Assembly (NCBI RefSeq): GCF_012910715.1
Contig: NZ_JABBHF010000003.1
Span: forward strand, 372,001-436,000
DNA length: 64,000 nt
DNA from: Flavivirga algicola
Lineage (GTDB): Bacteria > Bacteroidota > Bacteroidia > Flavobacteriales > Flavobacteriaceae
Direction of reading: 5' to 3'
Positions 5,612 through 53,664 of this stretch are shown one piece after another. Every line of letters begins with the position of its first letter. Position 1 is the first letter of the stretch. The translations under genes were made by a program, and so were the position numbers. The notes beneath the pieces are model-generated. The model was not told the DNA's origin and did not search any database. It saw nothing but the letters and a program-made list of their open reading frames with translations.

Positions 5612-6172
5612 TCACGCAATACTAAGTTGATACTTGTCAAGTAGCCCAGCAATATTGTCTTTCGAGAATTTTGCGTGCTTCATTTTATTGTTATCAGGAT
5701 CTAACGATATGTTGTAAGCCGATTTAAAGTCTACCCGCTCCAGTATGGTGCTTTGAAATAGGGTGTTTTTTAAGTTACAGTTTTGAAACGTCGAACCTGT
5801 TAAATTGGTTTCCGTAAAATCAACACCCGTTAAATTACAGTCTTTAAAGAGCATTTTTTTTAGAGTTAAATTATAAAATACAGAGAGTTCCAGATTACAA
5901 TTGTTAAAAGAGACAGATAAAAATAAATCATCACAGTCATTAAAGTGTATGCCTAACAATTTACAATTGGAAAAATAAACATCGTTAAGTACCGCGTGCT
6001 TTATTTTGGTTAAACTAAAATGACAACCTATAAACTCGCAATCTGTAAAAGACATATTCGATAGATCTGCATTGGCAAAATTACAGTTTATAAATCTACA
6101 GTCTTCATATTCTCCTTTCTCTAAAGGGTTTTTAGAGAAATTTTGATCTTCAAAATCTTTATTTTCAATCAA
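5612..6172 (-). CDS. Pentapeptide-repeat protein
   Basis: 186 residues built almost wholly of pentapeptide repeats of the A(D/N)LSN / CNLTG type (CRFINCNFANADLSNMSF, DCNLTGVDFTETNLTG, FQNCNLKNTLFQ). These fold into a right-handed quadrilateral beta-helix. Many centre positions are F or L with Cys in the preceding slots. A non-repetitive tail (MKHAKFSKDNIAGLLDKYQL) probably forms the dimerisation helix. Length and tail recall Qnr/MfpA-type DNA mimics, but no Qnr-specific loop could be confirmed, so this is only a fold match. It starts 17 bases after the HD-PycTM gene, so the two are very likely one operon. Confidence 0.88.
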   Translation of the reverse strand: MIENKDFEDQNFSKNPLEKGEYEDCRFINCNFANADLSNMSFTDCEFIGCHFSLTKIKHAVLNDVYFSNCKLLGIHFNDCDDLFLSVSFNNCNLELSVFYNLTLKKMLFKDCNLTGVDFTETNLTGSTFQNCNLKNTLFQSTILERVDFKSAYNISLDPDNNKMKHAKFSKDNIAGLLDKYQLSIA

Positions 6173-6189
6173 ATTATTTTAAGGTTTTA

Positions 6190-7398
6190 TTATAAGACGT
6201 TGGCTCTGGAGAAAAACTGAAATGCAATAGCAAATGAAATAACACTCACTATAATACCCACCATGAATACACTATAAGTTAAACGAAGTATTTTATATTT
6301 TTTGTCTAAAACCAGTCCTAGGAAATATAAATCTTTTTTCATGGAAGAATAAAGATATTCTCTGTCTTGCATCATTTCTCCCATGGCCCATTCGAAATCT
6401 TTAAGGCTCATTTTATGAAAATTCCCAAAAAACAATAAATTAACTTTTTTATTGGCAACATCTTCCTTGGTAAATTTACCACTAGTCACATTGGGTCTGG
6501 TAGCTAAAATGGATAGTACGATAGATATAACTGTAAATACTACAAAAATAATTGTAGGGACAATTAAATAATGGTTGGATTCATTATCTAATTTCGAAAC
6601 CAAATTAGAAAGCACTAAAGATACGATGATGGCATTGACCGATAGTAAAATATTAGCCTTGGTGTCTGCAATATTGCTTAATGTGATATGGTTTTTGAGA
6701 GTCACCCTAAACATGGTCTCAATACCACGTTCTGGTAACGCTACTTTATTTTTTTTAAAGCTTAGTTCTTCTTTTTTATGCTTTAGTTTGGAATTCTCTT
6801 GCTTTAATTTATTCTGTGCTTTTAGTAATTGGGCTAGATTTTTACTCTTAGTTTTGTCCCATTTAGCAGAAGCTTCGCTTGTGTAAAAACGATGACTGTT
6901 AGATAAAAAGTCAATATTCATACTCAGCCATTCTTCTTCGCTAAGTTTTTTATCACAAGCAAGTTCCCATTCTTTTCTAAGTAACTCGGTGATGTCACTA
7001 AATCTTTTGCTTCCAATATGGGCGCAATCGGCATCCCTAATTATTTTTTCTAACCCATTCTTTGGCTCATAGCCCATTTTAGTAGCTAAAATCAAATCGG
7101 ATATAATTTTTATATCGTTTTCAGGTACATTATGACCTTTCAAAAATGCACTCGTAATTTTCACACTTTCTGCTTCATGATTGTCAATGTTTTTTGTGTA
7201 ACCAGTATCATGAAACCAAGCACTTAATAATAAAAGGGATTTGTTTGTTTCTTCTAAATTGCTAAGTTCAGCCAATTCATTAGCCTTTTTAACGACATCT
7301 TGTGTATGTGATAAATTGTGATAAACAAATTTGCTATCAAGATGCTCATTTAAATATTGGATGACATATTTTTCCGCTTCAGCAATAAGATTTTCCAT
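6190..7398 (-). CDS. HD-domain phosphohydrolase fused to a PycTM (DUF5706) membrane effector domain
   Basis: 402 residues in two modules. The N-terminal HD phosphohydrolase has candidate metal ligands H31, H63-D64 (WFHDTGY) and D124 (RDADCAH). A Lys-rich coiled coil (about 190-225) links it to a C-terminal domain with SNIADTKANILLSVNAIIVS at the start of its first membrane helix, a signature of the DUF5706/Pycsar-effector family. Helices lie at about 249-268, 277-300 and 374-396. Known of the family: PycTM proteins act as membrane-damaging effectors in cCMP/cUMP (Pycsar) anti-phage systems. Inferred here: the HD domain may hydrolyse the nucleotide sensed by the membrane part. No cyclase gene is adjacent. 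A pentapeptide-repeat gene follows 17 bases downstream. Confidence 0.88.
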   Translation of the reverse strand: MENLIAEAEKYVIQYLNEHLDSKFVYHNLSHTQDVVKKANELAELSNLEETNKSLLLLSAWFHDTGYTKNIDNHEAESVKITSAFLKGHNVPENDIKIISDLILATKMGYEPKNGLEKIIRDADCAHIGSKRFSDITELLRKEWELACDKKLSEEEWLSMNIDFLSNSHRFYTSEASAKWDKTKSKNLAQLLKAQNKLKQENSKLKHKKEELSFKKNKVALPERGIETMFRVTLKNHITLSNIADTKANILLSVNAIIVSLVLSNLVSKLDNESNHYLIVPTIIFVVFTVISIVLSILATRPNVTSGKFTKEDVANKKVNLLFFGNFHKMSLKDFEWAMGEMMQDREYLYSSMKKDLYFLGLVLDKKYKILRLTYSVFMVGIIVSVISFAIAFQFFSRANVL

Positions 7399-20817: not shown

Positions 20818-20849
20818 TTGGTCAGTTTGGTATATGTTTTATATATTTG
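20818..20849 (+). promoter_or_regulatory. TTG-N21-TATATTTG promoter and AT-rich palindrome of the toxin-antitoxin unit
   Basis: TTG at 20818-20820 and TATATTTG at 20842-20849 give the flavobacterial promoter form TTG-N17-23-TAnnTTTG, 18 bases before ATG 20868. The -7 box lies in an ATATAT-TTG-ATATATAT inverted repeat (20841-20857), a plausible operator for autoregulation by the antitoxin. Confidence 0.6.
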
Positions 20850-20867
20850 ATATATATAATCTATATT

Positions 20868-21119
20868 ATGGGAAAAACAAAAAAACTGATAGAATTAGAC
20901 GATAAAGCTATCGAGATCCTTGAAAAACAGGCGAAACTCCAAAAGCGTTCACTTAAAAATTATATTGAATATACATTAGAAGATACTGCAGCACGATTTA
21001 GCGAACCTTCAGAAGCGTATAAAACTATGATGGATGATATGATAAAAAGAGACGAAGAAGGAAGTTTGAAAACAACATCTGTTGCTGAGGTTTTAGCTCG
21101 CTATGGAAGAAAATTATAG
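20868..21119 (+). CDS. Antitoxin of a type II toxin-antitoxin pair
   Basis: 83 residues from MGKTKKLIEL. The N-terminal strand-helix-helix (KKLIELDDKAIEILEKQAKLQKRSL then KNYIEYTLED) resembles a ribbon-helix-helix DNA-binding domain; the charged C-terminal tail should wrap the toxin. An upstream in-frame start at 20847 is rejected because it overlaps the -7 box and adds only MIYIIYI. The stop overlaps the toxin start by 17 bases. It probably represses its own promoter. Confidence 0.85.
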   Translation: MGKTKKLIELDDKAIEILEKQAKLQKRSLKNYIEYTLEDTAARFSEPSEAYKTMMDDMIKRDEEGSLKTTSVAEVLARYGRKL

Positions 21120-21375
21120 ATTTTCGTCAGAAGCTAAGCTAGAACTTCACAGAGCTTTATGCTATTTTAAGTTGATGAATAAAGATGGTATGTTTATGGA
21201 TGAATTAATTAGTCAACTGAGGCTCATTACTTCTATGCCAACAGCATTTCAAATTAAGTACAAAAACATTAGAGTGCTTGGGTTTAACAAATTTAACTAC
21301 TCAATCCATTATGTTATTAAAGAGGGAGGTAATATTATAATTTATCATATATTCAATCAAAAACAAGATTTTTAA
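21103..21375 (+). CDS. RelE/ParE-superfamily toxin
   Basis: 90 residues with the ParE/RelE pattern: two N-terminal helices (FSSEAKLELHRALCYFKLMN and DELISQLRLI) and then strands (AFQIKYKNIRVLGFNKFNYSIHYVIKEGG and IIIYHIFNQKQ). Aromatic and basic residues near the C-terminus could act in ribosome-dependent mRNA cleavage (RelE type) or gyrase binding (ParE type); the sequence does not decide which. Translation is coupled to the antitoxin by a 17-base overlap. A DUF1697 gene begins at the very next base after its stop. Confidence 0.85.
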   Translation: MEENYRFSSEAKLELHRALCYFKLMNKDGMFMDELISQLRLITSMPTAFQIKYKNIRVLGFNKFNYSIHYVIKEGGNIIIYHIFNQKQDF

Positions 21376-36953: not shown

Positions 36954-37667
36954 ATGAAGAATATAAGTATTATAGTATTAATGTTTTTTGCAAGCGTATC
37001 GCTTTCGGCACAAGACTTAAGTGCTTTTTTTAAAAAGGCAGATAGTTTTTTTAAAACTAACGTTACCAATGGTAAAGTAGCGTATTCTAAAATTAATGCC
37101 AACCAAGAACCCCTTAATGAGATTTTAAAATTGGCAGAAACCATTTCAGTATCAAAAAACGATGCGAATAATTATCAGGCATTCTGGATAAATGCTTACA
37201 ACCTATCAGTAATAAAAGGTATTATAGACAACTATCCAACAAAATCGCCTTTAGACCATACAGGTTTTTTTGATAAGACAACCTATAATTTAGGAGGCAA
37301 GAAAATTACTTTAAATGATATAGAACACAAGCTATTAAGAGCGCAATTTAATGATGCCCGTTTTCATTTTGTGTTAGTCTGTGGTGCTTTGGGATGCCCA
37401 CCTTTAATTAATAAAGCATATTTGCCCAGTACCTTAGATACCCAAATGGATACTCAAACAAAGAAAGCATTGAATGGTAGCTTTTTAAAAGTAAATATTA
37501 AAAAGAAACGTGTACAAGCGTCTCAGATTATGGAATGGTATAAAGGTGATTTTACGATGAATGGTAAAACGGAAATAGATTTTATCAATACATACAGAAC
37601 AGAAAAAATACCTGACAATTTTAAGCTAAGTTATTTTCCATATAACTGGAGCGTAAACAAACAATAA
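36954..37667 (+). CDS. Secreted DUF547 protein (first copy)
   Basis: 237 residues with a signal peptide (LSAQD cleavage region near residue 20). DUF547 signature: YQAFWINAYNLSVIKGIIDNYP, LNDIEHKLLR and FHFVLVCGALGCPPLIN, ending in FPYNWSVNK. DUF547 is an uncharacterised family. A second copy (44530-45402) is next to an arsenosugar-type transferase; the two share FWINAYN, NDIEH/DEIEH and a C-x-CP core. It starts an operon with an outer-membrane barrel 36 bases downstream. Function unknown. Confidence 0.88.
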   Translation: MKNISIIVLMFFASVSLSAQDLSAFFKKADSFFKTNVTNGKVAYSKINANQEPLNEILKLAETISVSKNDANNYQAFWINAYNLSVIKGIIDNYPTKSPLDHTGFFDKTTYNLGGKKITLNDIEHKLLRAQFNDARFHFVLVCGALGCPPLINKAYLPSTLDTQMDTQTKKALNGSFLKVNIKKKRVQASQIMEWYKGDFTMNGKTEIDFINTYRTEKIPDNFKLSYFPYNWSVNKQ

Positions 37668-43844: not shown

Positions 43845-44537
43845 TTAATAAATATACTTTTTGTAATAACGATTTAGCTCTTTAGCATCGGCGCCCATCC
43901 ACTTTTTTAAATGAATTCTCCAATAATGGTATTGTAGTCTCCAAACACCATTTACACAATAACATCTTGCAGAGGTAGTCAGCCATTTTTGAATCACAAC
44001 AAATTGTTTACGATCGTACAATTTTGCGATGAGGTCGTTGTCCTCATAAATAGTGAAATTTTCATTAAAACCACCAATATTATTAAAAAGGGTTGCTGTT
44101 ATAAATTGACTTTGGTCCCCGCCCCGACAAATTTTCCAGGGTAAGCGTGTGAGTTGCCCAGCAAGTTTAAGCCACAAATGATTACTATTAAATTTCATTC
44201 TAAAACATCCAGCTTCATTACCTTTTTTAACCTCGTTTATAATAAGCGTATCGAAATCTTTTGGGGGGAATGAATCGGCATGCAAAAAATAAAGGATACT
44301 GCCAGTGGCATTTTTAGCCCCAAGATTCATTTGTTTGGCACGACCTTTTGATGAATTTAGGAGCTTTACAGACTTATGTTTGGAAACGATGTCTAGTGAT
44401 TTGTCTGTACTTCCTCCATCGGCAATAATTATTTCAGCTATATTTTCTTTTGATGAGTTTTCTAAAAGATGAGTGAGCAGATGTCCAATGTGGTCTGCTT
44501 CGTTTAGCATGGGAATTATTATTGACATCTTACTCAT
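43845..44537 (-). CDS. TIGR04283-like GT2 transferase (arsenosugar cluster)
   Basis: 230-residue GT2 with MSIIIPMLNEADHIGHLL, IIADGGSTDKSLDI, KGRAKQMNLGAKNATGSILYFLHADSFPP (DxD-like HADS) and RGGDQSQFI. These are hallmarks of the family called 'transferase 2, rSAM/selenodomain-associated' (TIGR04283), found with ArsS-type radical SAM proteins and now named arsenosugar glycosyltransferase. It overlaps the DUF547 gene by eight bases, forming the distal half of the arsenosugar cluster. Sugar and acceptor are unproven. Confidence 0.9.
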   Translation of the reverse strand: MSKMSIIIPMLNEADHIGHLLTHLLENSSKENIAEIIIADGGSTDKSLDIVSKHKSVKLLNSSKGRAKQMNLGAKNATGSILYFLHADSFPPKDFDTLIINEVKKGNEAGCFRMKFNSNHLWLKLAGQLTRLPWKICRGGDQSQFITATLFNNIGGFNENFTIYEDNDLIAKLYDRKQFVVIQKWLTTSARCYCVNGVWRLQYHYWRIHLKKWMGADAKELNRYYKKYIY

Positions 44538-45402
44538 TTAAATTCCAATTATAGTCTTTAAACTTCTTTTTTGCTTTATTAGAAATCTTAGTTTCTGAAT
44601 ATTGATTAAGAAAATCGATTAATGAACCGTTTTGTTTAAAATCTTTAGCAAACCATTGAAACAGTTTTGAGATTTTAATTGAGTTTTTAGATAAGTTATT
44701 CTTAGTGGGGTCATTTAAAAATTCTTTTGTAGCATTGGTGAGTTGTGTTTCTAAATTGCTAGCTGTAAACGCTTTGTTTTGTAATTTAGGACAAGAAAAT
44801 GAAGCACAATTAATGGCAAAATGAATTCTAGGTTCGTTCATTTTACGTAAAATTTGGTGTTCAATTTCATCTAAATTATACCATTTGTCACCTAATTTCC
44901 AATGGCGTTGTTTCCACGGATCTTTTAAGTCCTTTATGCTTTTTAGTGGATAATTACGTAAAATTAAATCTACAGTAAAGGCATTGTAGGCGTTGATCCA
45001 AAAAGCGAGTTTTTGTTCTTTAGAACGTGTTTTAAAACTTTCATGTTGATACATTAAGTTTAAAACATGAAGATAACCATAGAAATCCTTTCGTTCTTTT
45101 TTGAGTTCTTTATAATTAACGTTGCCATCTTTTGAAACATACTTTTGTAAAAGATCGTTCCATAACTCATGCTCGTCTAAAATTCTTTTTGTTAAAACTT
45201 GATCGAATTTTTCAGTTTTTATAGCGGTTTCTATAGGTTGTTCATCAGTATCTTTTATAGTTTTACTAGGTGTCGTACTAACGGTATCAATTTTAACTTG
45301 AGCTGCTGGAACAGGTGTAGGTTTTGTTATTTCTTTAGCAACTTTTTTAGAACCTGCGCAGGAAAAAAATAAAAAGACAATGATATACGTTAGTTGCTTC
45401 AT
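44530..45402 (-). CDS. DUF547 lipoprotein (second copy)
   Basis: 290 residues. Lipobox FLFFSC with Cys15; a Lys/Thr/Pro-rich linker to about residue 70; then DUF547 (KLAFWINAYNAFTVDLILRNYP, LDEIEHQILRKMNEPRIHFA, NCASFSCPKLQNKAF). The same family as 36954-37667. It is next to the TIGR04283-like transferase, an arrangement seen in Flavobacteriaceae arsenosugar loci. Function unknown; probably envelope-located. Confidence 0.9.
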   Translation of the reverse strand: MKQLTYIIVFLFFSCAGSKKVAKEITKPTPVPAAQVKIDTVSTTPSKTIKDTDEQPIETAIKTEKFDQVLTKRILDEHELWNDLLQKYVSKDGNVNYKELKKERKDFYGYLHVLNLMYQHESFKTRSKEQKLAFWINAYNAFTVDLILRNYPLKSIKDLKDPWKQRHWKLGDKWYNLDEIEHQILRKMNEPRIHFAINCASFSCPKLQNKAFTASNLETQLTNATKEFLNDPTKNNLSKNSIKISKLFQWFAKDFKQNGSLIDFLNQYSETKISNKAKKKFKDYNWNLNE

Positions 45403-45550
45403 TTTAAATTGAATAATTATAAATCTATAACTAATAAACGCTTCAAGATAAATTTAAGTCTGTAATTTACATTATTACTTACATCGTTCGAAGATACATT
45501 CTAAAAAAAATGAAGGACTGGTGTAACCTTTTTATAAATTGAAGGTCTTT

Positions 45551-46105
45551 ATGCCAAACCACAACAAAATAGAATTGAAAAAGCTAACCGACGAAGAATT
45601 AATGCTTGATGTATCTCAAGGTAATTTAGATGCTATGGCTCATATTTTTGAACGCTATAATAAGCGGTTGTACAATTTTTATTTTCAAATGGTAAGAGAC
45701 AAAGCTATCTGTGAAGATTTAACCCAAACTGTGTTTTATAAAGTGATGCGTTACAGAGAATCTTATAAAGGAGGTCAATTTGTATCATGGATTTTTAGGA
45801 TTGCAAGAAATGAATTTTCAGATTATTACCAGAGCTCCAAAAAGACTTCAAAGAATACTGATATAGAGCTTGTAACCAGCAAAAGTGAAGATAGCTTAAT
45901 TGAAAAAAATGATAATGAGACACATTTACACGAAGTTTTAAACACATTGAATAAGGATGAAAGGGAATTAATTGTGTTAAATAGATTTCAAGGTCTAAAG
46001 TATGATAAAATAGCTGAAATAGTAGGAAGTAGTGAAGGTGCTGTAAAGGTGAAAGTACATCGAATTATAAAAAAATTAAAAACTGTTTATTTTAAAACCA
46101 TATAA
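45551..46105 (+). CDS. ECF-type RNA polymerase sigma factor
   Basis: 184 residues. Region 2: DAMAHIFERYNKRLYNFYFQ, CEDLTQTVFYKVMR, FVSWIFRIARNEFSDYY. Region 4: TLNKDERELIVLNRF, KIAEIVGSSEGAVKVKVHRI. ATG 45551 is chosen over the in-frame TTG at 45539. Its anti-sigma partner starts two bases after the stop. It opens a five-gene block with DUF4097 proteins and a lipoprotein, likely an envelope-stress regulon. It sits between the two arsenosugar halves, on the opposite strand. Confidence 0.95.
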   Translation: MPNHNKIELKKLTDEELMLDVSQGNLDAMAHIFERYNKRLYNFYFQMVRDKAICEDLTQTVFYKVMRYRESYKGGQFVSWIFRIARNEFSDYYQSSKKTSKNTDIELVTSKSEDSLIEKNDNETHLHEVLNTLNKDERELIVLNRFQGLKYDKIAEIVGSSEGAVKVKVHRIIKKLKTVYFKTI

Positions 46106-46107
46106 TC

Positions 46108-46899
46108 ATGAATTGTAAAGATATAGAACAGGATATACTAGATTTTATTGATGGTGAATTAGCTACAGATAAGGCTGATAAAATTAAGAAACATATAGGT
46201 ACATGTGCTAATTGCAAGGCGTTTTATGATGAAACAGTTGCGCTTTTTGGAGCATTCAATAAAGAAGAACAACAAGTGCCAAGTGAAAGCCTACGGGAAG
46301 GTTTTTATAAGCTTCTTGAGGAAGAAAAACAGCTGTTAAATCCAAAAGTTGTCCAGTTTAATAAACAAGAAAAAGCGTTTCCGTGGAAACGTGCATTTCA
46401 AGTGGCAGCTTCTATAATATTTCTATTTATGGGGTATTTTTTAGGAAGCCATAAGACAGGAAAAGATGCAAATAAACAAATAATAGCATTGCAAAAAGAA
46501 ACGAATGAATTAAAAGAAGGGATGGTTTTGGCAATGATTGAAAACCAGTCCGTAAGTAAACGAATTCAAGCAGTAAACTATACTGAAGGTTTTGAAAAAC
46601 CAGATGTTAAAATATTAGAAGCTTTAATTGAACGTATGCAATATGATGGAAATATGAATGTGCGGCTGGCTGCAGCAGAAGCGCTGTCAGAATTTCCAGA
46701 ATCAATCATGGTAAAAGATGCGTTTATTGAAGCTCTAACAACGCAGAAGAGCCCAAGTTTACAAATTGCCATTATTCAATTTTTGGTAAAGATCCAAGAG
46801 AAGCGCGCTATCGCTCCAATGAAACAACTATTAGAGCATTCGGACACACCAGATTTTGTAAAGGAGCAGGTAAACGATGGTATTTTGCAAATTATTTAA
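46108..46899 (+). CDS. Anti-sigma factor with zinc finger and HEAT repeats
   Basis: 263 residues. N-terminal zf-HC2 (HIGTCANCK; HxxxCxxC) binds the sigma factor. One membrane helix at about residues 94-111 (VAASIIFLFMGYFLG). The outer part is helical with HEAT-like repeats (MNVRLAAAEALSEFPES, PSLQIAIIQFLVKIQEKR, AIAPMKQLLEH). HEAT repeats give a protein-binding surface, so it may sense a periplasmic partner such as the DUF4097 proteins downstream (inferred). Two bases from the sigma gene. Confidence 0.92.
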   Translation: MNCKDIEQDILDFIDGELATDKADKIKKHIGTCANCKAFYDETVALFGAFNKEEQQVPSESLREGFYKLLEEEKQLLNPKVVQFNKQEKAFPWKRAFQVAASIIFLFMGYFLGSHKTGKDANKQIIALQKETNELKEGMVLAMIENQSVSKRIQAVNYTEGFEKPDVKILEALIERMQYDGNMNVRLAAAEALSEFPESIMVKDAFIEALTTQKSPSLQIAIIQFLVKIQEKRAIAPMKQLLEHSDTPDFVKEQVNDGILQII

Positions 46900-46921
46900 T
46901 CAAAAATTAAAATCAAAAAAC

Positions 46922-47692
46922 ATGAAACGAACAGGAATTATTATAAATCTAATGGCTTTTTTGAGCTTTGTATTCTCTTATGCACAGGAGGATTATACCA
47001 AAAACTTAAATGGAATCTCTAAAGTTTATATAGAAACAGGAACTAAAGTTAAGATAACAGCAGGTTCAAGTAATGTGTTAAAGTTCAATAATATTGGACA
47101 TAATAAAACAAATAATGAACGTGCTGAAGGATTAAAAGCTGTCTATTCGGGAGGGGCAGACAATACTGGATTTGGATTTTCAATGAGTCAAGAAGGAAGT
47201 GTATTACGTGTTAAAGATTTAAAATCGTGGATGCAACGCAAAGATCTTCAAATAGAGCTTCCTAAAACAATAGATATTCATATAGATTGTGGAAATCTAG
47301 GTTCTGTAACTTTTGAAGGATTCTCTTCTGAAATTGAAGTTAACAGTACTGTAGGTAATATTACGTTTAATGACGTCACAGGCCCCATTACCGCACATTC
47401 AGAAACAGGAACTATTAATGTTGATTTTGTTAATGTTAATCAATCATCACCAATTACAGTCCATAGTTCAACAGGAAGTGTTGATGTGTCCTTACCATCA
47501 AATACAAAAGCCGATTTAGAATTACGTTCTACCATGGGAACAGTTTACACTGATTTTGAGTTGAAAACTGATGCTCCAGACGGTATGAAAGTAGTTGGGG
47601 CTAATCGCAAAATTGAAAGTAAGCTCAATGGGGGAGGCGTAAACATAGTGCTTAGATCATCAACCGGAAACGTATACCTCAGAAAAAAATAA
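46922..47692 (+). CDS. DUF4097 secreted beta-helix protein, copy 1
   Basis: 256 residues. Signal peptide (MKRTGIIINLMAFLSFVFSYAQ); ATG 46922 is preferred to an upstream in-frame start at 46877 inside the anti-sigma gene. DUF4097-type solenoid strands: VTFEGFSSEIEVNSTVGNIT, THSTGSV-like turns (VHSSTGSVDVSLPS, LRSSTGNVYLRKK). These parallel beta-helix proteins are typically linked to sigma/anti-sigma units. Extracytoplasmic; binding partner unknown. Confidence 0.87.
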   Translation: MKRTGIIINLMAFLSFVFSYAQEDYTKNLNGISKVYIETGTKVKITAGSSNVLKFNNIGHNKTNNERAEGLKAVYSGGADNTGFGFSMSQEGSVLRVKDLKSWMQRKDLQIELPKTIDIHIDCGNLGSVTFEGFSSEIEVNSTVGNITFNDVTGPITAHSETGTINVDFVNVNQSSPITVHSSTGSVDVSLPSNTKADLELRSTMGTVYTDFELKTDAPDGMKVVGANRKIESKLNGGGVNIVLRSSTGNVYLRKK

Positions 47693-47715
47693 ACAATCAA
47701 AAAACGAACAGTAAA

Positions 47716-48438
47716 ATGAAACACCTGATAGTAATGGCACTATTAAGCGTGGTAACGCTTAACGCCCAAAAACAAGTAGAAGTAAAAGAACAAGTCTTTA
47801 AAAATCAAGAGGTTTTTATCAACTTTAAGTTCGCTCAAGATATTAAAGTTAAGCATGGAAATACTGATGAAATTATAGTGAAAGCATCAGTAAATATTGA
47901 TGAAGGTGCAGGCAATGACAAGTACAGTATCAAGAGCGAAAATAATTCAGGACAGTTAAAGTTATATTCAGATTTTGGAGATTATTTTAAAAGTAAAAAA
48001 CGAAACGTCTATTATTCTAATAAAGATGGAAAAAATGATAATTGTAACTGTTGCAGTACATCAGATATTAATTATGTGGTCATTGTACCCAAAAATGTAA
48101 GTCTCAAGATTAAAAGTATATCTGGAAGCGTTTTTATAAATACTTTTGAAGGTGATTTGGTAACTGATTTAATTTCGGGGGATATTACTATCAAAAAATA
48201 TAGTGGAGAATTACGATTAAAAACAATAAGTGGCGCATTAGATATTATAGTTGATAAGGCAAAGCTTCATGCAAAGTCTGTAACAGGTACTATATATTCT
48301 GATATGGATTTTGAAAAAACTAAATTTGGGAAGCACAGCAAGTCATTTAACAACAAGGTTTCAAAACAAATTAATGGAGGAACGCTTCCGTTGGTAATGG
48401 AAACCGTTTCAGGGAATATTTACATAAGGAAAGGTTAA
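47716..48438 (+). CDS. DUF4097 secreted beta-helix protein, copy 2
   Basis: 240 residues with signal (MKHLIVMALLSVVTLNAQ). Solenoid strands like the preceding protein (LKIKSISGSVFINTFEGDLV, LISGDITIKKYSGELRLKTI, ETVSGNIYIRKG). A cysteine cluster (NCNCCSTSD) near residue 112 is unusual and may bind metal or form disulfides. Paralogue of copy 1, 23 bases downstream of it. Confidence 0.86.
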   Translation: MKHLIVMALLSVVTLNAQKQVEVKEQVFKNQEVFINFKFAQDIKVKHGNTDEIIVKASVNIDEGAGNDKYSIKSENNSGQLKLYSDFGDYFKSKKRNVYYSNKDGKNDNCNCCSTSDINYVVIVPKNVSLKIKSISGSVFINTFEGDLVTDLISGDITIKKYSGELRLKTISGALDIIVDKAKLHAKSVTGTIYSDMDFEKTKFGKHSKSFNNKVSKQINGGTLPLVMETVSGNIYIRKG

Positions 48439-48444
48439 TATAAA

Positions 48445-49179
48445 ATGAAAATACTAAAGGGCTTTATTTTAATTGTATTCATGTTTTGCAGTGTTACCTG
48501 TAATTCAAAAAAAACTCAATTAGGGCAAGTAGAAATACTCTTTCAGGAAGATTCGCTTAAGTTCACAGAATCGCAAAAAATATTTATCAGAGAATTGATA
48601 AATAAGTCAGGAGAAGAAGTTCGTAATGTTTTGCCAAATCTTCCAGACAGTATAAAAGTTGTTGTTGAGAGTGTAAATTGGGATTTGGATCGCGTTGGAG
48701 GTGTAACAGGAAGAACCGAATGGAATTCGCCTCCAACAATTGCCGTTCAGCTTTCCAACAGTTATCATGGAGGCATTGTTGACTCTCTTGAATTGGGAAT
48801 TAGAAGTGTCGTGTTTCATGAATTCCATCATTTGGCACGAGGTTGGGCTATATATGATAATAAATTTGGATATGGAATTCCTAATGCTATGGTTAATGAG
48901 GGTTTAGCAGTTGTCTTTGCTGAAATACAAACGGGTTATATATGTGATGAAAATTCCTTTACTAATGAGACTGATAGTTGGGTGAAAGAAATTTTAGACC
49001 TTCCGCTTGATGCAAGTTATAATAAATGGGTTATGGGAGAACACCCAGATGGTAGAACTTCTATAGGGTATAGGGCAGGAAACTATCTTATTAGAAAAGC
49101 TATGAAAAAATCTGGTAAGAGTATTATAGAATTAAGCGCACTAAAACCTAATGAAATAATAAGTTTAGCAGGTTATTAA
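48445..49179 (+). CDS. HExxH zinc-metalloprotease-like lipoprotein
   Basis: 244 residues with lipobox (FCSVTC, Cys19). Conserved VVFHEFHHLARG contains HExxH, and AMVNEGLAVVFAE gives a candidate third Glu ligand 20-30 residues later, as in DUF2268-like peptidases. Last gene of the sigma-factor block, six bases after the DUF4097 gene. A membrane-anchored metalloprotease could take part in the same envelope response; substrate unknown. Confidence 0.83.
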   Translation: MKILKGFILIVFMFCSVTCNSKKTQLGQVEILFQEDSLKFTESQKIFIRELINKSGEEVRNVLPNLPDSIKVVVESVNWDLDRVGGVTGRTEWNSPPTIAVQLSNSYHGGIVDSLELGIRSVVFHEFHHLARGWAIYDNKFGYGIPNAMVNEGLAVVFAEIQTGYICDENSFTNETDSWVKEILDLPLDASYNKWVMGEHPDGRTSIGYRAGNYLIRKAMKKSGKSIIELSALKPNEIISLAGY

Positions 49180-49212
49180 AGGTTGCTAAACTTTGAAAAA
49201 ATGATGTGATTG

Positions 49213-49236
49213 GGTGGGTGTTTAGCAACACCCACC
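49213..49236. terminator. Hairpin covering the arsM stop codon
   Basis: GGTGGGTGTT-TAGC-AACACCCACC, a perfect 10-bp GC-rich stem. It covers the last arsM codons (minus strand) and its stop. On the minus strand a T-rich run follows about 13 bases later. A second inverted repeat (GTTGCTAAAC, 49182-49191 with 49220-49229) overlaps it. It may end the arsM operon and the convergent sigma operon. Confidence 0.6.
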
Positions 49237-50193
49237 ACCATCATAATGATACGTGGATTCTGATATATAAATATCGTCTCTGTTTAGTGCTTGTATGGCA
49301 CCAGCTGTTTTATCGCAAATAGCCAAAGGTTGGTTTTTTAACAAAACATGACCTGCATTATCATCAAAAAAATCTTCACCACCGTAATAAATAGCCGCTT
49401 TTCCTGTAAAGATGCAAGGGCCATCTGCAGGCATTGGATCTTTTATTGCGGCAACTTCAATAGATTCTATATAAATTAGCTCATCTGTTGGATAATGCTT
49501 GGAATCTAGTATTCTATATGGCTTTCTTGCCCTAATTTCGATAGTGCCAAAACCAGCATCTGTTAGTGCTTTTACGTATTCTGCAATGGGTAAACTACCA
49601 CTTAGGCATAAAGCACGTAGTCTTTCATCGTTACGTAATGTATCATTCATTGGTTGTTCGCATGTAGGATCGCTCATTACTAACCTCCCATGAGGTTTTA
49701 AAACACGATACATTTCTGCGATAGCTTTTTTTAGATCGTCTGCCTTAAAAATATTAAATAGACAATTTTGAGCAGCCACATCGATACTATTGTCTTCCAC
49801 GGGAAGATTCATAGCATCTCCTTTTTTAAGGTCAACAAATTCACTTTTAAACCAATTGTTTTGTGCTTCTGCCTCAACAAAATTCTTACGAGAAGCCTCT
49901 AACATCTCATCAACAACATCGATACCAACTACGCCTCCTTTTTGACGATTAAAATAGGCAAACTGTAACAGTTCCATGCCCCCACCAACACCAACATATA
50001 ACATTTTTGGGTTATTGGTTAAATCTCTTGCATGAACAGTACTCCCGCAACCATAGTTCATTTCTTGCATGATTTTTGGGATTTTTAACCCTGGTAATTC
50101 CCAAATTGGATTTGTCGTACAGCATAGCCCAACATCTGGTGTCAACGCGGCTTCTTTATATACATCTTGAGTGGTTTCTAAATAATTACTCAT
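49222..50193 (-). CDS. arsM: Arsenosugar-type arsenite S-adenosylmethionine methyltransferase
   Basis: 323 residues. SAM-binding motif YVGVGGGMELLQFAY; VGIDVVDEMLEASRKNF; cysteines at 24-25 and 49 (GLCC; NYGCGS), AAQNCLFNIF, SDPTCEQPM and ALCLSGSLP, fitting arsenic-binding ArsM. C-terminal residues are GGGCC, an unusual extra Cys pair that may bind arsenic. ArsM methylates As(III) to mono- and dimethylarsenicals, the feedstock of ArsS. Two bases after the PNP gene; cytoplasmic. Confidence 0.95.
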   Translation of the reverse strand: MSNYLETTQDVYKEAALTPDVGLCCTTNPIWELPGLKIPKIMQEMNYGCGSTVHARDLTNNPKMLYVGVGGGMELLQFAYFNRQKGGVVGIDVVDEMLEASRKNFVEAEAQNNWFKSEFVDLKKGDAMNLPVEDNSIDVAAQNCLFNIFKADDLKKAIAEMYRVLKPHGRLVMSDPTCEQPMNDTLRNDERLRALCLSGSLPIAEYVKALTDAGFGTIEIRARKPYRILDSKHYPTDELIYIESIEVAAIKDPMPADGPCIFTGKAAIYYGGEDFFDDNAGHVLLKNQPLAICDKTAGAIQALNRDDIYISESTYHYDGGGCC

Positions 50194-50195
50194 AA

Positions 50196-51008
50196 TTATA
50201 AGGTCTTAATAAGTTCTTTAAATAAGGTTATCATATTTGGTTCTGCTTTTGCAGCATTTTCAATGATATCCGAAATATTAACAGGTTCTAAGTTATCTGG
50301 GTCGCATTCATCTGTTAAAACTGACACAGCCGCTACTTTTAATTTTAAATGATTCGCCACAATAATCTCAGGTACGGTACTCATACCAACAGCATCAGAC
50401 CCAATAATTTTTAGCATCCGATATTCTGCTCTTGTTTCTAATTGAGGCCCCACTACACTTGCATAAACACCCTTGTGCAATTTTATATGGTTTGCTTTGG
50501 CAATGTTTTCAAACTTTGAATTGATTTCGGCATCATAGGGAGCGCTCATGTCTGTAAAACGTTCTCCTAATTCTTCAACACCTTTAAATGCCAAGGGAGA
50601 GCTGCCTTGCAAATTAATGTGGTCTTCAATAAGCATTAATTCCCCTTTTTTAAAGTTTAAATTAATGGCACCAGCCGCATTAGAAACCAGTAATGTTTTA
50701 ATACCCAGTTTTTCCATAATACGAACAGGATAAGTAACATCTTGTAATGTATAGCCTTCATATAAATGAAAACGTCCCTGCATAATGACCACTTTTTTAC
50801 CAGCAAGCTTACCATAAATTAGTTTTCCTTTGTGAAACTCGACTGTTGCTGTTGGGAAGTTCGGAATATGATTATAACTAACTTCTTTTATAATGTCTAT
50901 TTCGTTGATAAGTTGCCCTAATCCTGTGCCTAGTATAATGCCAATTTCAGGAGATTCAAAACCTTTTTCTTGTAGGTATTTAGTGGTTTCGTTTATGTAT
51001 TTAATCAT
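50196..51008 (-). CDS. Purine-nucleoside phosphorylase
   Basis: 270 residues; PNP family I trimer type. Signature GIILGTGLGQL, then MQGRFHLYEGY, LLVSNAAGAINL and MSTVPEIIVA. It phosphorolyses purine nucleosides. In an arsenosugar cluster it could cleave adenine from 5'-deoxy-5'-dimethylarsinoyl-adenosine to free a ribosyl unit; that role is inferred from context. Two bases upstream of arsM and 53 bases downstream of the TIGR04282-like gene. Confidence 0.94.
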   Translation of the reverse strand: MIKYINETTKYLQEKGFESPEIGIILGTGLGQLINEIDIIKEVSYNHIPNFPTATVEFHKGKLIYGKLAGKKVVIMQGRFHLYEGYTLQDVTYPVRIMEKLGIKTLLVSNAAGAINLNFKKGELMLIEDHINLQGSSPLAFKGVEELGERFTDMSAPYDAEINSKFENIAKANHIKLHKGVYASVVGPQLETRAEYRMLKIIGSDAVGMSTVPEIIVANHLKLKVAAVSVLTDECDPDNLEPVNISDIIENAAKAEPNMITLFKELIKTL

Positions 51009-51061
51009 CTTGTGTTTTTTGGAATTAATTTTAAAAAAAATACTATGGTAATGTAATGAAT

Positions 51062-51697
51062 TTATGCGTTATCTATTAAAGTTTTAACCTTTAATTGAAG
51101 CGCTTCATTGTGTTGGTAGAATGATGAATTTTCTAAATCTTCAAAAGTATCAATATCGTTTAATGCTTCCAGCAAAGTATAGGATATGTTTTCTCGATCT
51201 AATTCTTTAAGCGTTACTTCTAATAAATGAGATTCACTCCAGGGTTTATTACTAAATACGGTATGATGCATTTTTGTCATTCCTATGAGATAATAACCAC
51301 CATCAATAGCTGGCCCGAAAACGACCTCGTTACTCTTTAGTGCATTTAATCCTTTTTTAATATGTTCTGAATTAATATCGGGTAAATCAGATCCTATAAG
51401 TACAATACGCTCATAACCATCTTCAAAGCCTTTAGTAAAGGCGTTTTTCATGCGTTCTCCTAAATTGTCGCCATTTTGTATGGTCTTGTAATCGTTTTTC
51501 CATTTTGTTTTAATAACTGTATTAGAAAAATAGATTCGTTTGTCTATGGCTATTTTCTCTGTGGCAAATTCGGTGATTTTTACCAGTTCTTTATAGACTT
51601 CAAAAGCACCTTGAATACCAATAGTTTTGGCAAGTCTTGTTTTTACTTTGCCTAGTTTTATATTTTTAACAAAAACGACTATAAGTTCTTTATTCAT
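51062..51697 (-). CDS. TIGR04282-like transferase (arsenosugar cluster)
   Basis: 211 residues. CofC/MobA-like nucleotidyltransferase fold: LIVVFVKNIKLGKVKTRLAKTIG, IVLIGSDLPDI, VFGPAIDGGYYLIGM. It is the family known as 'transferase 1, rSAM/selenodomain-associated' (TIGR04282), a companion of TIGR04283 and ArsS. Possibly activates or transfers a sugar unit. Overlaps the rhodanese gene by eight bases. Confidence 0.92.
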   Translation of the reverse strand: MNKELIVVFVKNIKLGKVKTRLAKTIGIQGAFEVYKELVKITEFATEKIAIDKRIYFSNTVIKTKWKNDYKTIQNGDNLGERMKNAFTKGFEDGYERIVLIGSDLPDINSEHIKKGLNALKSNEVVFGPAIDGGYYLIGMTKMHHTVFSNKPWSESHLLEVTLKELDRENISYTLLEALNDIDTFEDLENSSFYQHNEALQLKVKTLIDNA

Positions 51698-52184
51698 ATA
51701 CTTTTACTCCTTTTTTTACCCACTTACTCCATGCATTAGAAAAGGCATGAATACTGTCCGTTTCTTTTTCTGACGAATTATAAATAGGTAAATTATTATT
51801 TTTCCATTCAAAAATACCACCATATAAGTTTTGTACATGGTTATAACCAGCTTTTTTGAGACTGTCTGCTATGGTTTCAGAGCGTATCCCTAAAGAGCAG
51901 TATACAACTATTTTAGTGTTTTTGTCAGGGATTTTTTTCTGAACATTTTCTATTTTAAACGTGTTATACCCAATATGGATGGCATTTTTTAGATGGCTTA
52001 CTTTGTATTCTGGTAGTTCTCTGGCATCTAAGAGCACAGGTGGTACTGTTTGTTTTTTTAATTGTTTTACATAAATATAGGGTGTACTTTCATCATTGTA
52101 TTTTTTTAATAATGATTTAAGGTTATTTTGAGAAAATCCCGAAATAGCAAAGCATACAAATATGTAAAAAAGTATTTTGTTCAT
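51690..52184 (-). CDS. Secreted rhodanese-like protein
   Basis: 164 residues, signal peptide (MNKILFYIFVCFAISGFSQ). Single rhodanese domain with the active Cys C96 in VVYCSLGIRSET and the LLDARELPEYKVSHLKNAIH strand. Rhodaneses carry sulfur as persulfide. Between arsS and the TIGR04282-like gene, a known arsenosugar context. It may handle sulfur or thiol-arsenic exchange in the periplasm (inferred). Confidence 0.9.
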   Translation of the reverse strand: MNKILFYIFVCFAISGFSQNNLKSLLKKYNDESTPYIYVKQLKKQTVPPVLLDARELPEYKVSHLKNAIHIGYNTFKIENVQKKIPDKNTKIVVYCSLGIRSETIADSLKKAGYNHVQNLYGGIFEWKNNNLPIYNSSEKETDSIHAFSNAWSKWVKKGVKVYE

Positions 52185-52187
52185 AAA

Positions 52188-53243
52188 TTAAGCAACTACG
52201 CCTTGGCAGCTACTTCCTGCTCCAGCGGTACAGCCATAACAGTGCTGAGAAATAACAATATGACGTCCTTCTAGTAGCGCTTCGTTATACTCAGAAATAT
52301 GTTTTACTTTGCTGTTTACTGGTAATTCCAGCATTTGATTAAAATCACAATCAAATAAATAGCCGTCCCAGCTAACAGATAGTGTATTGGTGCACATAAC
52401 ATTGCCCACAGCTGCTGGGTTATACGCTTCAACCAAAGAATACATGTAGTCTTCATAGTTTTCGGAAGCAATTAAATAATCTAAAAACCTGCTAATAGGC
52501 AAATTTGTAATGGCAAACAGATTATGAAACTGAATATTGAAATCTTCCTTTAATGCTTTTTTAAAATCCTTTTCCATGGATGCTTGATCGCCAGGTAAAA
52601 AAGCACCAGATGGGTTGTAGACTAAATCCAATCGAAGGCTGCTGTCTGGCATGCCGTAACCTATAGCATTTAGTTCTTGTAATGCCTTTATAGATTTGTC
52701 AAAAACACCATCTCCGCGCTGTTTATCTGTTTTTCCACGAGTCCAGTGTGGCATGGATGATACCACATGTACATTATGTTTTTTAAAGAATTCTGGTAGA
52801 TCGTAATATTTTTTATTGGCTCTTATTATAGTGAGGTTTGAGCGTACTATGAAATCCTTAATACCAGCTTTGGCAGCTTCTTCCACAAACCATCTGAAGT
52901 TGGGATTCATTTCTGGTGCACCTCCAGTTAGATCTAGGGTGTGCGCACCTGTGGTTTTAATGACATCCAAACACTGCTGCATCGTTTCTCTGGTCATGAT
53001 TTCCTTACGGTCTGGACCAGCGTCAACATGACAATGTTCGCAAACCTGATTACACATATAACCAACATTTATTTGAAGAATTTCTAACTTTTTAGCTTTT
53101 AAGGGAAATTGATTTGTTTCAGAAATTTTACTCTTAAACGTTGGTAATTCGCCATTTTGAAATATACCATTTGATAAAATTTCAAGCTGCCTGTTGCTAT
53201 TAGCTAAATCACTTTCGCGTTTATGTAGGGATTTTGTTGCCAT
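52188..53243 (-). CDS. arsS: Arsenosugar radical-SAM enzyme ArsS
   Basis: 351 residues. Radical SAM CxxxCxxC (C64, C68, C71 in GYMCNQVCEHCHVD), then LDLTGGAPEMNP. The C-terminal Cys-rich tail (HCYGCTAGAGSSCQG; C335, C338, C346) defines the family, which contains selenocysteine in some lineages. Here all are encoded as Cys. Known: ArsS adds the 5'-deoxyadenosyl group of SAM to dimethylarsinite, giving 5'-deoxy-5'-dimethylarsinoyl-adenosine. Three bases upstream of the rhodanese gene. Confidence 0.95.
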   Translation of the reverse strand: MATKSLHKRESDLANSNRQLEILSNGIFQNGELPTFKSKISETNQFPLKAKKLEILQINVGYMCNQVCEHCHVDAGPDRKEIMTRETMQQCLDVIKTTGAHTLDLTGGAPEMNPNFRWFVEEAAKAGIKDFIVRSNLTIIRANKKYYDLPEFFKKHNVHVVSSMPHWTRGKTDKQRGDGVFDKSIKALQELNAIGYGMPDSSLRLDLVYNPSGAFLPGDQASMEKDFKKALKEDFNIQFHNLFAITNLPISRFLDYLIASENYEDYMYSLVEAYNPAAVGNVMCTNTLSVSWDGYLFDCDFNQMLELPVNSKVKHISEYNEALLEGRHIVISQHCYGCTAGAGSSCQGVVA

Positions 53244-53268
53244 TAAATTGTTCTAAATTTTTATTAGG

Positions 53269-53287
53269 TCGACTGCGCTCAGAGTAA
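53269..53287. repeat. Degenerate copy of the dispersed repeat
   Basis: TCGACTGCGCTCAGAGTAAA-type element between arsS and the CMD-like gene; its TGCGCTCA core is shared with 24543-24570. Non-coding. Confidence 0.5.
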
Positions 53288-53328
53288 ATGATTCACTCAA
53301 TTTTGATGTTTCAAAATTGGTTTGCCGT

Positions 53329-53664
53329 TCACATTTCTAATTTATTCACTTTGTTCATCATCTGTACACCATGAACTAATGTAGCACCACTTTTTATAGC
53401 GGCTCCAACATGAAGTGCTTCCATCATTTCTTCTTTAGTAATACCACGTTGTAAGCCATCTTTTGTATAGGCATCTATACAGTAGGGGCATTGCTCTGTA
53501 TGCGAAACAGCCAAGGCTATCAAGGATTTTTCCCGAGCCGTAAGCGCTCCTTCTTCAAAAACTTTTCCGTAGTATTCAAAAAATTTATCTCCTAATTCTT
53601 GATTCCATTCACTTATTTTTCCGAATTTTTTTAGGTCAGCAGGGTCGTAATATGTCTTTTGCAT
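53329..53664 (-). CDS. Arsenosugar-associated carboxymuconolactone decarboxylase/peroxidase-like protein
   Basis: 111 residues. AhpD/CMD-like fold with the redox pair C59 and C62 in HTEQCPYCIDAYTKDG, and LTAREKSLIALAVS upstream. Small CMD-like proteins of this type are found with ArsS and were named arsenosugar biosynthesis-associated peroxidase-like proteins. It is 85 bases upstream of arsS, probably the first gene of the operon. A near -7 match (TATCTTTA) lies 53679-53686 on the minus strand. Confidence 0.9.
   Translation of the reverse strand: MQKTYYDPADLKKFGKISEWNQELGDKFFEYYGKVFEEGALTAREKSLIALAVSHTEQCPYCIDAYTKDGLQRGITKEEMMEALHVGAAIKSGATLVHGVQMMNKVNKLEM

Follow-up and report, generated by a model that had tools for sequence, protein, structure and literature searches.

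A Flavobacteriaceae arsenosugar gene cluster and a proposed phosphorolytic route for the steps after ArsS

We analyzed a 64,000-nucleotide stretch of the Flavivirga algicola genome (contig NZ_JABBHF010000003.1, positions 372,001 to 436,000; hereafter, the window), in which eight minus-strand genes form a cluster of a known arsenosugar kind. We propose that this locus makes an arsenosugar through arsenite methylation by ArsM, adenosyl transfer by ArsS, phosphorolysis by a purine nucleoside phosphorylase (PNP), activation to a nucleoside diphosphate (NDP) sugar by the TIGR04282 protein, and transfer by the TIGR04283 protein, a scheme that we consider to have an even chance of being right. Arsenosugars are widespread marine arsenic compounds. 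In the excerpts of the open-licence literature that were searched, no characterized enzyme acting after ArsS is described and one proposal is made (PMC10456119); the literature consulted also included PMC12608789, PMC7345539, PMC7533571, PMC13171826, PMC11237643, and PMC8764529. Comparison across genomes names two to three candidate enzymes, in order and each assayable alone, and offers a concrete scheme, open to test, for the pathway's final, still unproven steps. The cluster genes are as follows.

53329..53664, minus strand: carboxymuconolactone decarboxylase (CMD)/AhpD-like protein with CxxC (TIGR04169, 192 bits against a cut-off of 120)
52188..53243, minus strand: ArsS, radical SAM protein (TIGR04167, 441 bits against 300)
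51690..52184, minus strand: rhodanese-domain protein (NF045521, rhoda_near_glyco, 200 bits against 145)
51062..51697, minus strand: TIGR04282 protein, CofC-like, proposed nucleotidyltransferase (191 bits against 134)
50196..51008, minus strand: PNP, trimeric PunA type (TIGR01700, 296 bits, just above the cut-off of 293.35)
49222..50193, minus strand: ArsM, arsenosugar-type arsenite methyltransferase (NF038099, 574 bits against 400)
44530..45402, minus strand: DUF547 protein with a probable lipoprotein signal, judged by eye (PF04784, E 6e-30)
43845..44537, minus strand: TIGR04283 protein, family-2 glycosyltransferase (GT2; 228 bits against 182)

An earlier reading, made from sequence only, had placed these genes, together with a plus-strand five-gene block for an extracytoplasmic function (ECF) sigma factor, at these same positions and had called the cluster arsenosugar-type; both statements hold. 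Because five of the eight genes (ArsS, ArsM, TIGR04282, TIGR04283, and TIGR04169) pass the curated cut-offs of NCBIfam families named for arsenosugar biosynthesis, the cluster belongs to a known kind. Six families, the five of that set (TIGR04167, NF038099, TIGR04282, TIGR04283, and TIGR04169) plus NF045521, are matched over cut-off in the window. The set differs from our reading in that TIGR04282 is named a glycosyltransferase there and in that PNP and DUF547 lie outside it; no arsenosugar-named family was among the profile matches of these two genes. ArsS has the CxxxCxxC radical SAM motif and no in-frame TGA read as selenocysteine, and the TIGR04169 protein weakly matches the ArsM-AhpD fusion family NF041537 (29.3 bits, under cut-off). 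Each half of the cluster looks like one operon, because genes overlap by 8 bases (rhodanese-TIGR04282 and DUF547-TIGR04283) or are separated by 2-3 bases (PNP-ArsM and ArsS-rhodanese). A Bacteroidetes-type promoter pattern gave 11 hits against 8.9 expected, which gives no ground for a promoter claim. The reported lack of arsR, arsC, and Acr3 in the window was reproduced, no such family being returned by Pfam scans of its 68 non-overlapping open reading frames (ORFs) of at least 70 amino acids (E limits 1e-3, 1e-6, and 0.01), and a search of the whole 5.02 Mb genome for Acr3 (TIGR00832) at E 1e-3 found nothing.

ArsS is reportedly the subject of a paper by Cheng et al. 2021. The first two steps of the proposed pathway rest on published family chemistry: ArsM would methylate arsenite, and ArsS would attach the resulting dimethylarsenic to the 5'-deoxyadenosyl moiety of S-adenosylmethionine (SAM), activities shown by others according to excerpts of PMC12159101. 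The steps after ArsS are those that we infer. PNP would cleave the ArsS product, releasing adenine and leaving 5-deoxy-5-(dimethylarsinoyl)-alpha-ribose-1-phosphate, TIGR04282 would activate this arsinoyl-ribose-1-phosphate to an NDP-sugar, and the GT2 enzyme TIGR04283 would move the arsinoribosyl group onto an acceptor of glycerol or lipid type. Most GT2 enzymes invert, and TIGR04283, should it do the same, would give the natural beta-riboside. That configuration of natural arsenosugars is stated in excerpts of PMC10456119. The CMD/AhpD-like CxxC protein would most likely hold arsenic trivalent for ArsM and ArsS, and DUF547 and rhodanese may be envelope accessories. The earlier reading had suggested thiol/peroxide chemistry as a putative role of the rhodanese and CMD proteins. 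The rhodanese has, by eye, a probable N-terminal export signal and an active-site Cys; the apparent export signal argues against a cytosolic arsenic-thiol role.

Gene presence was scored in an evenly drawn sample of 129 genomes that represents the Flavobacteriaceae with nearly one genome for each genus, at E limits of 1e-60 (ArsS and ArsM), 1e-30 (PNP), 1e-35 (TIGR04283), and, for TIGR04282, 1e-15 in this sample and 1e-40 in an evenly drawn sample of 392 Bacteroidota genomes. For co-occurrence and linkage, only the best TIGR04282 and TIGR04283 match per genome was taken, which excludes second copies near or below the cut-off. ArsS was present in 105 Flavobacteriaceae genomes, PNP in 124, TIGR04282 in 110, TIGR04283 in 98, and arsenosugar-type ArsM in 82. 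As the earlier reading had expected, the PNP and transferase genes co-occur with arsS: TIGR04282 and PNP were found in all 105 ArsS genomes (three PNP matches being partial or having an in-frame stop) and TIGR04283 in 93. Because ArsS occurs in so many sampled genomes, at about one genome per genus, heterotrophic Flavobacteriaceae join algae and cyanobacteria as candidate arsenosugar sources. Arsenosugar-type ArsM accompanies ArsS in 82 of the 105; the 23 others may use another methyltransferase or import methylated arsenic. Among the 392 Bacteroidota genomes, 151 have ArsS and 216 have TIGR04282, with both in 148, ArsS alone in 3, and TIGR04282 alone in 68. In one of the three ArsS-alone genomes (G129), the locus does contain a lower-scoring TIGR04282 match (L201, 65 bits).

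The genes are also linked. The distance between TIGR04282 and PNP is at most 3 kb in 110 of 110 Flavobacteriaceae genomes, whereas ArsS and TIGR04282 are no more than 20 kb apart in 84 of 105, indicating that the cluster is really two separable modules, CMD-ArsS and TIGR04282-PNP-ArsM-DUF547-TIGR04283. Within 20 kb, ArsM is linked to PNP in 81 of 82 genomes and TIGR04283 to PNP in 92 of 98. Gene order was compared in the window and the best 80 of 581 confirmed ArsS loci, a collection whose counts lean to near kin and omit loci cut at their ends. PNP followed TIGR04282 within 3 kb in 73/73 loci with both in view, and TIGR04283 stood no more than three ORFs after DUF547 in 40 of the 43 loci with ArsM-then-DUF547 in view; these orders put the arrangement far beyond chance. 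The CMD gene was in view in 80 of the 81 loci. Two Tamlana loci (L039 and L073), not found in the 129-genome sample, have about 8 kb between TIGR04282 and PNP and fall outside the 73, PNP being off the end or beyond the 3-kb view.

Five genera without ArsS and arsenosugar-type ArsM (L106-L110) keep rhodanese-TIGR04282-PNP-(DUF547)-TIGR04283, with DUF547 absent in two of the five; the TIGR04282-PNP-TIGR04283 trio is therefore not strictly dedicated to arsenic. The trio might be a self-standing route from purine nucleoside through pentose-1-phosphate and NDP-pentofuranose to an acceptor, into which ArsM and ArsS plug arsenic and by which ArsS-less lineages make an ordinary, undescribed riboside. 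We put this extension forward tentatively and think it on balance somewhat doubtful; if true, the TIGR04282 family would carry the wrong name and would provide the first nucleotidyltransferase for arsinoribose-1-phosphate.

PNP itself is borrowed from purine salvage. A sole copy was found in the window genome, PNP is single-copy in 123 of the 124 PNP-positive Flavobacteriaceae genomes, and it is present in 19 of the 24 genomes without ArsS. In one genome without ArsS and TIGR04282 (G121, locus L120), a lone PNP stands between an acyl-CoA dehydrogenase/anmK pair and a phosphoesterase, which also flank the window's cluster; there, the arsenosugar genes are absent around a retained housekeeping PNP. 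Since it is the genome's only PNP and occurs without ArsS, PNP is a recruited housekeeping enzyme. Its co-occurrence with arsS supports its earlier assignment to the pathway; as a dedicated arsenic gene, it is ruled out by its single copy and its presence without ArsS. The window PNP has Asp in its TDEC motif, and the same site is Asp in 4lna, 8swt, and 4m1e and Asn in 8swu and 3la8. We take this position to be Asn243 of human PNP and the second position to be Glu201. Excerpts of PMC2799393 describe a change of Asn243 which, combined with Glu201Gln, lets the human enzyme cleave adenosine-type substrates. Unlike that double variant, the window PNP retains Glu at the second position. Because it keeps this Glu and the PNPs compared from ArsS-less genomes likewise have Asp, the Asp appears to be at most permissive for action on adenine nucleosides. 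The Asp/Asn switch was dropped as a diagnostic of an arsenic role, Asp also being found in ArsS-less genomes.

Other phyla were covered via plasmid records only; 51 of 72,556 records had ArsS (46 of them Burkholderia), and six were read. 5'-Methylthioadenosine (MTA) phosphorylase, which acts on a 5'-modified adenosine, lies near ArsS in three of the four Pseudomonadota loci read. An Acinetobacter portensis plasmid (L104) carries, within about 9 kb, ArsS, DUF547, TIGR04283, TIGR04282, a methyltransferase, a phosphate transporter, and a sterol-desaturase-family gene, all in common with window-type clusters; it differs in having MTA phosphorylase (on the opposite strand) for PNP, a TVP38/FAD oxidoreductase, and no rhodanese annotated in the stretch. 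In Cupriavidus, ArsS has nearby an ArsM-like methyltransferase, an AhpD-like protein, a MerA-like oxidoreductase, MTA phosphorylase, and, by profiles built for this analysis, TIGR04283- and TIGR04282-like ORFs. Burkholderia glumae has adjacent TIGR04282-TIGR04283-MTA phosphorylase genes about 6 kb from ArsS. On Thiodictyon, Pseudanabaena, and Hymenobacter plasmids, no phosphorylase was found within the stretch read around ArsS. By analogy, the position of MTA phosphorylase where Flavobacteriaceae have PNP, together with the ArsS product being a 5'-modified adenosine, speaks for phosphorolysis as the reaction that follows ArsS.

Phosphorolysis has to be weighed against hydrolysis, in which a nucleosidase would free the arsenoriboside for joining to an activated acceptor, as in algal AsSugPhytol, with PNP clustered by chromosomal chance. 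Excerpts of PMC10456119 contain such a proposal for Dunaliella, an adenosyl nucleosidase followed by phytyl diphosphate; it shares with our scheme the removal of adenine from arsinoyl-adenosine and the joining of the riboside to a lipid alcohol, and differs in using a nucleosidase and phytyl diphosphate versus phosphorolysis and an NDP-sugar. The single housekeeping copy of PNP and its lone position in G121 between the same flanking genes fit this alternative. It is further favoured, at the expense of our scheme, by 39 Bacteroidota ArsS loci outside Flavobacteriaceae, where PNP or MTA phosphorylase was found in 0/39 of the stretches and TIGR04282 in 17/39. Chance clustering of PNP is countered by the invariable closeness of TIGR04282 and PNP and by the Pseudomonadota MTA phosphorylases, and no cluster protein matched a nucleosidase, the rest of the genome not having been searched for one; we regard hydrolysis as unlikely.

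For the step after phosphorolysis, structure comparison bears on the class of TIGR04282. Its AlphaFold2 (AF2) model (predicted local distance difference test, pLDDT, 90.5) resembles the CofC/FbiD guanylyltransferases (7p97, 2i5e, and 6bwh), and among solved relatives whose activity is known, the closest to it are guanylyltransferases. Asp104, Asp181, and Asp183 are invariant and match the CofC/FbiD metal site by spacing and a weak profile alignment (E 0.27). Given this fold and these three aspartates, we consider nucleotidyltransferase activity more likely for TIGR04282 than the glycosyltransferase activity that its NCBIfam name implies. We file it as probably working like CofC and not as CofC itself: it scores 35.6 bits against the CofC family TIGR03552, below the cut-off of 105, and its proposed substrate is a sugar-1-phosphate versus a phospho-acid. 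Of the two transferases named in the sequence-only reading, both co-occur with arsS, and the class of this one is what has changed. The AF2 model of TIGR04283 (pLDDT 95.4) has a GT-A fold and matches NDP-sugar GT2 enzymes. At L189:7089-8372, a single gene fuses TIGR04283 (N-terminal) to TIGR04282 (C-terminal).

Taken at its NCBIfam name, TIGR04282 would use ribose-1-phosphate or another donor directly, with no NDP-arsinoribose; the structural evidence disfavours this, and we give it a low probability. It is less probable still that TIGR04282 activates the acceptor, a phosphorylated C3 acid or glycerol phosphate in CofC style, instead of the sugar. The closest functionally known structures do act on 3-phosphoglycerate, phosphoenolpyruvate, or 2-phospholactate. 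However, the tie of TIGR04282 to a nucleoside phosphorylase gene and its one fusion to a GT2 gene fit better with sugar activation, and position 154, which in our reading of the alignment is near the CofC carboxylate-binding Ser, is Ser in 45 and Gly in 36 of 81 sequences.

Between the two halves of the window's cluster, the slot between ArsM and DUF547 holds the sigma block.

45551..46105 (ATG 45551 or TTG 45539), plus strand: ECF-type sigma factor (Sigma70_r2 and r4)
46108..46899, plus strand: zf-HC2 anti-sigma factor with HEAT repeats (Pfam)
46877-47692 and 47716-48438, plus strand: two genes with no Pfam match at E 1e-6
48445..49179, plus strand: DUF2268 predicted Zn protease (PF10026, E 3e-14)

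It had been suggested that this block might be a recent insertion, and gene-neighbourhood comparison across Flavobacteriaceae went against that idea. A genus-mate (G014) lacks the block and has other genes at the slot (L117), as would be expected if a mobile element had recently split one operon. Yet related blocks stand beside DUF547 in four other genomes: L033, which is not part of the 129-genome sample, carries the complete five-gene block in the slot, and G065, Aureisphaera (L057/L115), and G068 have four, DUF2268 not being found. The G065 block lies about 15 kb from ArsM, beside DUF547-TIGR04283. The linked anti-sigma factors of these four genomes are 47-80% identical to the window's. In a tree of 13 anti-sigma rows (not all matches), the five linked rows form a weakly supported group (82/81) whose sister is the unlinked G110 (100/98 for the six). 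An anti-sigma homologue occurs in 15 of the 129 genomes and lies near the cluster in four (window, G065, G068, and G122). No linking repeat of at least 14 nt was found at the block edges, and the block genes gave no hit to a recombinase family, although two of the five match nothing. Recent insertion was rejected on the related blocks beside the same genes, the grouping anti-sigma factors, and the lack of an edge repeat, and we consider it very improbable. Among the 43 loci (window included) with both ArsM and DUF547 in view, the slot holds the full block in 2 and no recognized cargo in 11; the remaining loci have there a member of the fatty-acid hydroxylase family, a PHO4 phosphate permease, or different genes. 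From these comparisons, the slot appears to be a variable position and the block an old, patchily kept neighbour outside the pathway; nothing here ties it to arsenic. In Burkholderia glumae (L176:4649-5442) and Acinetobacter (L104:4325-4927), ArsS also has sigma-factor genes nearby, accompanied by CcdA and thioredoxin genes; these are apparently unrelated to the window's block.

Genes akin to the slot's PHO4 permease and fatty-acid hydroxylase also stand next to the Acinetobacter cluster, a hint, and a lead only, of arsenate entry with phosphate and of a lipid acceptor. In 21 of the 80 loci, a SusC-SusD-SSF symporter-metallophosphoesterase block lies between ArsS and rhodanese (for example, L018:11806-18606), headed by a second TIGR04282-like gene that has lost its N-terminal G/R/L loop; the four-gene block also adjoins ArsS in L199 and L216. 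All 22 of the 129 genomes that encode the SSF symporter also have ArsS, and in 21 of them the two genes are no more than 10 kb apart. The block might serve to import a compound of arsenic or a sugar compound. A TadA-like deaminase family is found in 17 loci, just upstream of CMD-ArsS at L016:9042-9515, by chance or because it could deaminate the ArsS product. Elsewhere in the window are a second DUF547 gene (36954-37667, about 6 kb from the cluster), a possible ParE-like toxin with a small upstream gene (20847-21375, Pfam score just under cut-off), and a PycTM-domain (Pycsar effector) protein adjoining a pentapeptide-repeat protein (5612-7398).

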